This document shows positions 2,675 to 11,090 of a stretch of DNA of 34,580 bases, one piece after another. The stretch spans positions 1 through 34,580 of the IMG/VR virus record IMGVR_UViG_3300027741_000159; one strand, written 5' to 3'. This stretch comes from a virus. Position 1 is the first letter of the stretch. Each line of letters starts with the position of its first letter. The notes under the pieces are model-generated. The model was not told the origin of the DNA. It searched no databases and saw nothing but the letters and a program-made list of their open reading frames with translations. A program made the position numbers and the translations under genes.

Positions 2675-2698
2675 TTTGATTCTCCTTGAGGTATTGTC

Positions 2699-2705
2699 TA
2701 TTTAG
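2699..2705 (-). promoter_or_regulatory. T4-type late promoter motif for the neck operon
   Basis: CTAAATA on the minus strand, within GACTAAATAGAC, lies 24 nt before the ATT start of the 110-residue gene and directly after the intrinsic terminator at 2726-2750. It resembles the T4 late consensus TATAAATA, which is read by a gp55-type sigma factor and needs no -35 box. Position between a terminator and a new operon is the main support. Confidence 0.6.
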
Positions 2706-2954: not shown

Positions 2955-4819
2955 GAAGTTGCTCCTTTGATGATGGAAAAGTTAAGTACAAGTGCATCAG
3001 AAAGTGATCCACCAGAAATGTTACGAACATAAATGTTTGCCCCACCAGCTCCCACGTTTGACCAGATGTTGTAATTTGCTGCGTTCCCTGCGCCTGCGTT
3101 AAGAGTAATTAAAAGATTATCTACTGCGGCAATAAGCGTACTATTAAACGTAAAAGCAACTGTAGTAGTTGCCGCCAAAGCCGCAGCATTCATCGTAATC
3201 TGACCTGTAGGCTTGTTTAGCGTGACAGCGGTAGATTTTGATGTTGCTTGTGTAACAGTACCACCTGCACCTGCGCCGTAGCCAAGACCTGCAACATTGG
3301 TAACAAGTACGTTTCCGCTGGAGTCGATACGCATACGTTCAGATGAACCAACACCAAAAGCCGTATACGCAGCGGAATTGCTTTCGTTGTTATTTATAAT
3401 GAACGCACCATTCTTATATTTAGTAATATCAACAACTGCTACTCCAGAACCCGCAACATTAGAGGTAATTAAACGCATATTTACGCCAGCAGAAGCGCCT
3501 GTATTGGCGTTATAAACATCAAAATAACGAAGCGTATTGCCAGCATCAGCAACGCCGCCAATATTTGCGTTACCGTTGGATTCGATACGCATACGTTCAA
3601 TGTTGTTTGTGATAAACACACTATTGTTTGCGCCAGTAGCACCAAAATAAGCACCGCCATCCGTATACAAATAAGCATTATTTTCGTCTGTAGTAATAAA
3701 TTGATTTTTTAATCCAGACCCGCCTACTGCTACTTTATACCCACTAGTTGATGTAACACCAATTCCCACATTACCGTTGGAGTTGATACGCATACGTTCT
3801 GTAATCGTTGATGCACCATCAGCGGTTGTACTGAAAACGATTCGACCGGGCATATCTCCAGCGCCAGGCGTGGCATCGACAACGGCAGAAATTTGAGCCG
3901 CAATAGCATAGGTTGAGCCGTCCCAAGAATAAAAATTCAATGCTCCAACATTATCACCTGATTGAACAATTGTTGGAGAAGAGGCTGTTCCTCTTGATTT
4001 TATAAAAGCAATACCTGGAGCATTTGTTCCATCATTACTTTTTCTGATAGTAACTAAATTGCCAGCGCCCGTATTTGTGCTAAACAGAGCAGAAAGAGGT
4101 GTAGCGTTAGTAGGTATTGTTGAATCTCCCACAGTCAATGCTGTGGTTGGCGAAGCAGTACCAATACCAACATTACCATTGAGAACATACAAGTTACCAT
4201 TAGCTGTTGTGTTACCCTGTAATGTCAATTGTGTTATTGATGAGTTTGCAGGAAACGCAGTGATAGTACTAGTTGTTCTAAATCCTAAATGTCTCACATG
4301 GACATTAGAAGATGCAGTTGGTGCTGAAGTAAATGTGATTGTCTTACCAGAAGTTGTATAGTGTACTGGTGCTCTTTGCATCATACCATCAACCATTACA
4401 AACAATGTATTGGCATCAGCAGGTGCTTCTGATAGTGTAAATGTGGTTGTACTACCGTCTGGTATAAAATTGTCGGTAGTGAATAAACGAATGTTGTTTG
4501 CTAACTTAGAGTAAGTAACAGAACCATCGGCAAGAGTAACTTCATTATTTACATATTGACGATATGCAACATAGATGTTATTTGTTCCTGTTGGAGGAGA
4601 CTCTGAAAATGTTAGAGTATTACCAGAAACATTAAATGCTACAATTGGTTCTTGTTGAATGTTCTCAACAAATACTTCGAGCTCAGTAGGAAAATTTACT
4701 GCTCTACTAAGAGTAAATGTAGTCGTAGAAGCATTACCAGAAAATCTCTGCACATCTGAAAGAGGTGCACTTGTTCTAGTTGGGTCTCCGGTTTGAAGAT
4801 TGGATCCTAAGTAAGAAAT
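2951..4819 (-). CDS. Tail fibre / appendage protein of 'SYLG' type with ERMRID repeats, ATT start
   Basis: The frame is open from ATT 4819-4817. The first canonical start is a GTG at 4753 with no ribosome site. Translation from ATT gives (M)SYLGSNLQTG..., matching the MSYLG... start of the ATG-initiated paralogue at 10656-11078; AAGG lies 9 nt before ATT. Length is 622 residues. The N-terminal part holds two related beta-sandwich units, each with STTTFTLS ... (L/I)TF(S/T)..P, at about residues 28-110 and 120-195. The middle carries repeats of the ERMRI(D/E)S(N/S)GN(V/A).IG type found in many bacterial and phage fibres. The C-terminal ~110 residues (AATTTVAFTFNS ... GSLSDALVLNFSIIKG) look like a distal beta domain. 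The role is probably host-contact or decoration. It follows the promoter at 4868-4874. Confidence 0.8.
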   Translation of the reverse strand: MSYLGSNLQTGDPTRTSAPLSDVQRFSGNASTTTFTLSRAVNFPTELEVFVENIQQEPIVAFNVSGNTLTFSESPPTGTNNIYVAYRQYVNNEVTLADGSVTYSKLANNIRLFTTDNFIPDGSTTTFTLSEAPADANTLFVMVDGMMQRAPVHYTTSGKTITFTSAPTASSNVHVRHLGFRTTSTITAFPANSSITQLTLQGNTTANGNLYVLNGNVGIGTASPTTALTVGDSTIPTNATPLSALFSTNTGAGNLVTIRKSNDGTNAPGIAFIKSRGTASSPTIVQSGDNVGALNFYSWDGSTYAIAAQISAVVDATPGAGDMPGRIVFSTTADGASTITERMRINSNGNVGIGVTSTSGYKVAVGGSGLKNQFITTDENNAYLYTDGGAYFGATGANNSVFITNNIERMRIESNGNANIGGVADAGNTLRYFDVYNANTGASAGVNMRLITSNVAGSGVAVVDITKYKNGAFIINNNESNSAAYTAFGVGSSERMRIDSSGNVLVTNVAGLGYGAGAGGTVTQATSKSTAVTLNKPTGQITMNAAALAATTTVAFTFNSTLIAAVDNLLITLNAGAGNAANYNIWSNVGAGGANIYVRNISGGSLSDALVLNFSIIKGATS

Positions 4820-4867
4820 TTTAGTTCGCCTTAATTAAATGACCTGTGTGGCCTGTTTCTTTAATTG

Positions 4868-4874
4868 TATTTAG
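4868..4874 (-). promoter_or_regulatory. Late promoter motif overlapping a stop codon
   Basis: CTAAATA on the minus strand; its TAA is also the stop codon of the 51-residue gene (AAC TAA ATA). It lies 48 nt before the ATT start of the 622-residue fibre. The same arrangement is found at 11084-11090. No other function is evident in the 51-bp gap 4820-4870. Confidence 0.5.
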
Positions 4875-5026
4875 TTCTGTTCGTCAGCTGGTTCTGGAGT
4901 ATTACCTTTAGCAAGCCACTTTAAGTATTCTTCGTTACTTTTGGTATTATGCATTTCACCAGTTGGTTGTCCATCAATCAACTTGATTGCAAAGTCGCTT
5001 AATTGTATTAGTTTATATGTAATCAT
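4871..5026 (-). CDS. 51-residue small protein of the 'EGNTPEPADE' family
   Basis: The product opens MITYKLIQLSDFAIKLIDGQ and ends with EEYLKWLAKGNTPEPADEQN. It is a paralogue of the 54-residue (11087-11251) and 56-residue (6151-6321) proteins, which share an N-terminal M(I)xYKL and a C-terminal YxxYLAWLAEGNTPxPADE. Such short proteins often follow fibre genes in phages. A fibre-assembly helper is possible but unproven. It starts 1 nt after the stop of the 370-residue fibre. Its stop codon is inside the late promoter at 4868-4874. Confidence 0.72.
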   Translation of the reverse strand: MITYKLIQLSDFAIKLIDGQPTGEMHNTKSNEEYLKWLAKGNTPEPADEQN

Positions 5027-10655: not shown

Positions 10656-11078
10656 TTAAATTATTGTCCAAGTGGCATTATTAGCAATTGTAACGGTTAC
10701 GTTATTTGCAATTGTTAATGGTCCTGCACTTGAAGCATTATATCCTGTAGTGATACTGACATTTTCAGTGAGTGTACTAGCATTAATTCTGACGATACCA
10801 TATGTATCTGCGGAAAGATATGGTGTAACAGTAACTTTACTACCCATATATGTCAACTCAATATTCTGTGCGCCTGTTGGTGGTGCTTCTGTGAATACAA
10901 TTTGACCATTAATCAAAGCATAAGAATCTGTTTTTTGTTTTACACCAGAAACGGATACAATAACAGATGACTCTGAACCTGTTGGATATGATAGAGTAAA
11001 TGCGGTCGTAGTATCATCACCCGAAAAGTATTCGGATTGAAATGAACCACTTTGAATTTGATTACCTAGATATGACAT
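10656..11078 (-). CDS. Short 'MSYLG' fibre/appendage protein (140 residues)
   Basis: The product begins MSYLGNQIQSGSFQSEYFSG, then DDTTTAFTLSYP and QIVFTEAPPTGAQNIELTYM, one beta-sandwich unit that corresponds to the N-terminal unit of the 622-residue protein at 2951-4819. The last ~40 residues, with SAGPLTIANNVTVTIANNATW, resemble the C-terminus of the 71-residue protein at 13725-13940, a small beta element seen at fibre ends. It is probably a structural adaptor. ATG 11078 lies only 5 nt after the late promoter motif at 11084-11090, with no room for a normal leader. Its stop is 8 nt before the next fibre. Confidence 0.72.
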   Translation of the reverse strand: MSYLGNQIQSGSFQSEYFSGDDTTTAFTLSYPTGSESSVIVSVSGVKQKTDSYALINGQIVFTEAPPTGAQNIELTYMGSKVTVTPYLSADTYGIVRINASTLTENVSITTGYNASSAGPLTIANNVTVTIANNATWTII

Positions 11079-11083
11079 ATTTC

Positions 11084-11090
11084 TATTTAG
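11084..11090 (-). promoter_or_regulatory. Late promoter motif overlapping a stop codon, next to an ATG
   Basis: CTAAATA followed by GAAAT and then the ATG of the 140-residue gene. The TAA in the motif is the stop codon of the 54-residue gene. If T4 spacing applies, transcription would start at or next to the ATG. Confidence 0.5.

Follow-up and report, generated by a model that had tools for sequence, protein, structure and literature searches.

Putative AUU, AUC and AUA start codons recur in late virion genes of uncultivated T4-like phages

Two genes in a viral contig of 34,580 nucleotides (IMG/VR record IMGVR_UViG_3300027741_000159, analysed over its full length and referred to here as the window) appear to begin at ATT, which raises the question of whether AUU is used as a start codon in this virus or whether the true starts lie elsewhere. 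The original prediction placed the start of a tail-fibre gene (fibre A) at ATT 4819, pointed to a second gene with ATT in the identical nonamer AAAATTTCT, and took the repetition to reflect a shared property rather than a single sequencing error. The second gene encodes a predicted tail-fibre assembly protein (Table 1). Comparison with relatives makes it almost certain, as far as sequence can, that both genes begin at AUU, and confirmed at the level of predicted starts that uncultivated T4-like (Kyanoviridae-related) phages use AUU, AUC and AUA (together AUH) as a recurring class, of which the two genes are instances and not accidents.

Table 1. Predicted features of the window discussed in the text, with the basis for each assignment
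Feature	Position	Strand	Basis
Neck protein gp14 (head closure Hc2), ATG in window; ATT in family members L334 and L340	460..1368	-	phrog_460
Tail-fibre assembly protein gene, from ATT, 110 codons	2342..2674	-	phrog_1084/phrog_3304; end-to-end alignment with ATG-started Melnitz and HTVC008M proteins
Assembly gene ATT start codon	2672..2674	-	Conserved in L009, L010 and L011; nearest later canonical start 67 codons away
Shine-Dalgarno AAGGAG, 7 nt ahead of assembly gene ATT	2682..2687	-	Sequence; spacing 7 in 14/14 AUH assembly genes
CTAAATA, putative late promoter of assembly gene	2699..2705	-	Sequence; behind terminator-like hairpin
Tail-fibre gene A, from ATT, 622 codons	2951..4819	-	Open frame; homologues begin at same codon; phrog tail fibre matches
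GTG, only canonical start near fibre A 5' end, rejected	4751..4753	-	Missing in L012; no Shine-Dalgarno
Fibre A ATT start codon	4817..4819	-	Sole possible start common with L012; aligns with homologues' ATG
AAA at -3..-1 of fibre A ATT	4820..4822	-	Precedes all AUH starts, but only 10.7% of canonical ones
GIY-YIG homing endonuclease scar (probable), last 13 codons KETGHTGHLIKAN and stop TAA	4821..4862	-	36/42 bases equal to 3' end of intact L326 gene
Shine-Dalgarno-like AGGCG at -12..-8, inside TAAGGCG	4827..4831	-	Position matches other AUH starts
CTAAATA, putative late promoter, overlapping stop of small upstream gene	4868..4874	-	Sequence; bimodal TAAATA-to-start distance in relatives
Small 51-aa gene ahead of fibre A	4871..5026	-	Open frame; weak match phrog_20370
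Paralogous fibre gene B, ATG start, MSYLG, leaderless-looking	10656..11078	-	ATG 5 nt after CTAAATA
CTAAATA directly ahead of fibre B	11084..11090	-	Sequence

On the minus strand, the fibre A region reads as an in-frame TAA (4837-4835), TTA AGG CGA ACT AAA, the ATT at 4819-4817 and then TCT TAC TTA GGA, and direct reading of the frame found no ATG, GTG or TTG ahead of GTG 4753. Being the first canonical codon in frame, this GTG is the natural candidate for a downstream start, as is the codon 67 residues into the assembly gene. GTG 4753 is preceded by acctctttcagat, in which there is no Shine-Dalgarno (SD) sequence, in agreement with the earlier claim that it lacks a ribosome site, and its use would discard the conserved SYLG... 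residues. The fibre homologue of contig L012 (L012/L001), from another metagenome and 73% identical at the protein level, retains the ATT together with its leader, aaaaggtgaactaaaATTTCTTACTTAGGATCC, with an in-frame TGA just upstream of ACT AAA ATT, but has GCA at the position of GTG 4753 and no canonical codon until codon 112. Because L012 keeps the ATT and leader without this GTG, the ATT is read as the fibre start, as had been proposed, and the downstream start is refuted for L012. Codons 2-22 of the window and L012 genes comprise 14 identical codons, 3 with silent and 4 with replacing changes, and the stretch that would be lost under the GTG or any later start shows a purifying pattern of substitution. 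A frameshift into the fibre A frame was rejected, as no upstream frame with a canonical start runs into it, and a hairpin in the leader was also rejected, being a weak 4-bp stem seen only in the window and not conserved among relatives.

The assembly gene gives the same answer. In a residue-by-residue alignment its ATT coincides with the ATG annotated for Methylophilales phage Melnitz and for Pelagibacter phage HTVC008M, so that a downstream start would cost 67 of 110 residues that align with these isolates, and such a start is judged highly improbable for the two genes. The putative N-terminal peptides from the two ATT starts would be (M)SYLGSNLQTGDPTR and (M)SEFLELIIEQGANFSK. As the window is a metagenomic contig in which single bases may be wrong, a true ATG corrupted during sequencing or assembly also has to be considered; however, the comparison with related genomes found the same ATTs in several separately assembled contigs, one of them with 84% identical DNA over the region, while ATC and ATA variants occur elsewhere and the AAA context is present in every case, which leaves next to no room for this explanation. 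Other relatives start their assembly genes at ATC (L045, L047), TTG or ATG.

The wider comparison drew on about 3.3 Mb of relatives, consisting of contigs that are fragments of uncultivated T4-like (Kyanoviridae-related) bacterial viruses from lakes and the sea. The sources of these relatives overlap, de-duplication was by context only, and several AUH cases are of shared ancestry. A coding-score scan proposed many candidates at adjacent codons, and its place was taken by starts defined from homologues and by a homology-free geometry scan. The latter required an SD pentamer at a distance of 6-8 nt, an AAA immediately ahead of the start codon and an open reading frame of 100 or more codons. The geometry scan returned ATG at 45 sites, ATC at 10, ATT at 8, and ATA, GTG and TTG at 1 each, i.e. 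19 AUH sites and no other codon, and moving the SD to 15-17 nt as a spacing control left a single site. Among 1299 distinct homologue-defined starts, ATG accounted for 1191, TTG for 42 and GTG for 31, and 35 had no nearby canonical codon. These exceptions included assembly genes with ATC (L356, L358, L375, L326, L213, L334, L216 and L338) or ATT (L212, L397 and L386; that of the window came up in the geometry scan), fibre genes with ATT (the window and L124) and neck gp14 genes with ATT (L334 and L340); portal genes had ATC or ATA one codon ahead of the voted position (L213, L254 and L256). Well-voted non-AUH exceptions in the small gene after the assembly gene (CAA, ACA, AAT and AAC), and the TCA of L375 and GTA of L309, were excluded on the view that their starts are misaligned, with no check of individual cases.

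AUH starts were therefore predicted in four families of late virion genes, namely assembly protein, fibres, portal and neck, and on many contigs, which bears out the view of a shared property. The feature common to them is an SD at about -12..-8, AAA at -3..-1 and then AUH, with T, C or A as third base. The AAA precedes all AUH starts and 135 of 1264 canonical starts, and within the assembly genes it is found at 14/14 AUH starts versus 2/44 TTG/GTG starts. The SD at AUH assembly starts is 5-6 nt long with invariant spacing, whereas spacing is variable with TTG/GTG starts, and in other AUH starts the AGGCG of fibre A has its counterpart at the same place as AGGTG, AGGAG, GAGGT or GGAGG. The base after ATC and ATA is always G (GCx, Ala), and after ATT it is never G; ATT followed by G would create an out-of-frame TTG, and competition between starts may thus explain the choice of third base, although this is an inference.

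The nonamer emphasised by the original prediction does occur at both ATT genes of the window, but was rejected as the determinant. It is not rare (3 found versus 1.2 expected, with 10 of 100 shuffles reaching 3), a scan of IMG/VR for the ISYLG pattern gave 24 sites of which only that in L012 was a gene start, and the ATC and ATA cases have only the AAA in common with it. Similarly, both genes do lie first behind a CTAAATA box, as claimed, but this position is not general, since the portal and neck cases differ, and CTAAATA is not enriched in the window (9 found versus 8.5 expected). As neither motif is in excess by count, the case rests on position and homology.

The favoured mechanism is that the SD, centred about 10 nt upstream, and the A-rich spacer ending in AAA place the ribosome so that the initiator tRNA, although it pairs with only two of the three bases of AUU, can start there, with fMet inserted. 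The near-optimal SD-N4-AAA-AUH site would make up for the weak codon, and low-copy virion parts (assembly protein, fibre, portal and neck) would probably be held well below AUG output in an IF3-sensitive manner. The start positions, their recurrence, the site geometry and the endonuclease scar described below are read from sequence, while actual initiation, reduced yield, IF3 sensitivity and the order of events are inferred in the absence of protein or ribosome-profiling data.

There are precedents for parts of this mechanism. In bacteria AUH starts are less efficient and are repressed by IF3, whose own gene, infC, resembles the present cases in having an AUH start (AUU, AUC or AUA) driven by the ribosome site with no canonical alternative (PMC5472188); however, infC is an autoregulated translation factor gene, whereas the present cases are phage virion genes for which IF3 control is only supposed. 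In S. aureus, AUU and AUA starts with an extended SD yield about 10% of AUG, and cvfC1 (AUU) and ccpN (AUA) likewise combine AUH with a strong, suitably spaced SD and attenuated yield (PMC13009471), but these are cellular genes of a Gram-positive bacterium, whereas the present cases are phage late genes with a fixed AAA at -3..-1 and repeated changes to AUH. No comparable phage AUU start was found in the open-access literature searched, no isolate falls inside the AUH clade (best isolate identity is under 60%), and the isolate starts that were checked are ATG.

Whether the weak codons are selected for low output is less clear. On a tree of 124 assembly proteins, built from a short alignment, AUH changed seven times, as gains or losses, and on the portal tree twice. 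Within the AUH-containing assembly clade (n=64), 40 genes start with TTG/GTG, 12 with AUH and 12 with ATG, while 59 of 60 assembly proteins outside it start with ATG. These virion genes repeatedly carry either TTG/GTG or AUH together with a good SD, in keeping with selection for moderate output in which the site rescues the weak codon. Given this TTG/GTG use and the precedent from other bacteria, selection for low output is favoured, though only slightly. It is alternatively conceivable that AUH arose by drift at sites already optimal enough to keep output sufficient, for which the strong SD and best spacing at AUH sites would speak; the seven changes within a single gene, grouped among TTG/GTG lineages, together with the absence of AUH from most other genes of the same genomes make drift the weaker account, but one that retains some plausibility. 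Six contigs with a known assembly start carry another AUH gene, and in four of these six the assembly start is also AUH (Fisher p = 0.0015, uncorrected for kinship).

A more radical possibility is that in these phages or their hosts AUN preceded by AAA is an ordinary kind of start, for example through lax IF3 or a phage-coded initiator tRNA, and that the phages employ IF3-sensitive initiation as a switch, leaderless AUG being swapped for SD-led AUH in the same fibre genes; this is considered rather improbable. No match to a phage-encoded IF3 homologue was obtained in the six relatives searched, and no tRNA genes were found in the window. Two relatives (G001 and G015) have about 30 tRNA genes each, some tRNA-Met having an initiator-like 1:72 mismatch (L208 2632-2707, L224 2179-2251), and no AUH start was seen on contigs with such genes. 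Permuted phage tmRNA was additionally observed at L206 13533-13900, L228 7407-7777 and L234 13349-13709, the L206 copy exceeding the gathering threshold of the betaproteobacterial family RF01850.

The origin of the fibre A site can be traced further. The stretch AAA GAA ACA GGC CAC ACA GGT CAT TTA ATT AAG GCG AAC TAA at 4862-4821, which would encode KETGHTGHLIKAN and a stop, is identical at 36/42 positions to the end of an intact endonuclease gene in L326, compared with a shuffled best of 25, and the differences lie mostly at third positions; on these grounds it is with good confidence read as the remnant of a GIY-YIG homing endonuclease gene. The L326 gene (3970-4614, 214 codons; phrog_314, E 5e-27, weak NUMOD3) ends in ...KVKETGHIGHLIKVN TAA, followed by A and the fibre ATT, and the scar stop likewise ends one base ahead of the fibre A ATT. 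L328/L214 has the same arrangement, an intact endonuclease gene (L328 2621-3415) and then ATT. The endonuclease genes of L326 and L328 adjoin fibre B, the paralogue of fibre A, and in L340 an intact GIY-YIG gene precedes neck gp14, again as TAA-A-ATT. No endonuclease gene was found immediately ahead of the start of an assembly or portal gene. GIY-YIG genes ending at or overlapping the start of the next gene were also seen in L130, L141, L330, L353 and L363, in fibre and neighbouring genes, and the fibre cluster resembles a hotspot for their insertion. In L334, at about 330-400, a NUMOD3-like endonuclease tail was noted by eye just ahead of the assembly-gene promoter.

Homologues of fibres A and B follow two designs. 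In the uninvaded (empty-site) homologues without an SD, the ATG lies 4-7 nt after TAAATA in all 15 listed leaderless-looking starts, fibre B included, and at exactly 5 nt in most of them, whereas homologues with a leader and SD mostly start, among near relatives, at ATT, TTG or GTG. Measured over all starts, the distance from TAAATA shows two peaks, one at 5-7 and one at about 20-25 nt. An SD-less ATG at a distance of exactly 5 nt from (C)TAAATA is seen in the window (11078-11090) and in L125, L131, L132, L133, L134, L137 and L127, and the promoters of the SD-less group overlap the stop of a small upstream gene. The T4 late -10 box ends near -6, and if this holds here, the SD-less fibre message would have its 5' end on or close to the ATG; TAAATA-N5-ATG fibre genes are therefore candidate leaderless late messages in T4-like phages, although transcription start sites are unmapped. 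Reading confirmed that the paralogue at 11078, cited in support of the ATT, opens MSYLG, but it differs from fibre A in more than the codon, being leaderless-looking where fibre A sits behind an endonuclease scar; its homologues in L326 and L214/L328 start at ATT behind the endonuclease gene. In a plausible sequence of events, a formerly leaderless ATG was separated from its late promoter by the arrival of an endonuclease gene, which brought the ribosome site with it and was later lost except for its last 13 codons, which hold the ribosome site and the stop. The insertions resemble the free-standing GIY-YIG endonucleases of T4-like phages (PMC2988022) in being intergenic beside a host gene and in phrog_314 and NUMOD3 content, but sit precisely on the start codons of fibre or neck genes, the last endonuclease codons supplying the SD and AUU start downstream, and in the window only the tail is kept.

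The stop one base ahead of the start suggests a further alternative, in which a ribosome terminating at TAA re-initiates one base on at AUH, re-initiation being less strict and tolerant of the weak codon. Consistent with this are TAA-A-ATT directly after the endonuclease genes of L326, L328 and L340, a mini-frame ATG AGA GGY ACC TAA A ahead of the portal AUH in L254 and L256, and the finding that ribosomes can resume at unusual codons past stops once recycling factor is lost (PMC2268962). However, no stop is present at this point in assembly genes whose spacer is AATCAAA or AAAGAAA, and these are the first genes after their promoter; what is left of the upstream frame in the window lacks a canonical start codon, so that nothing obvious terminates at 4821. 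Re-initiation is unlikely as the general explanation, but could contribute where a stop lies one base ahead of the start, which is not the case in these assembly genes. By eye, many portal starts (L254 2389, L256 9698, L243-L267) are preceded by a mini-frame of ATG and two or three codons with a stop overlapping or touching the start, a possible start-stop-start control. As leaderless messages and SD-less re-initiation are both inhibited by IF3 (PMC2268962), both fibre designs could, speculatively, share IF3 sensitivity.

Direct initiation at AUH remains the preferred reading, and the account as a whole, with AUU starts, compensation by the site, low output and an endonuclease origin of the fibre site, is considered likely. 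Gene finders accept only ATG, GTG and TTG, such that AUH virion genes are absent from databases or shortened there, and the assembly gene of the window would be missed altogether by ordinary gene finders. As the same virion genes have changed repeatedly to the weakest of start codons, start-codon tuning of part ratios becomes directly testable, and the endonuclease scar suggests that an essential gene can have its translation start supplanted by an adjacent selfish gene, whose start signal then stays in place.
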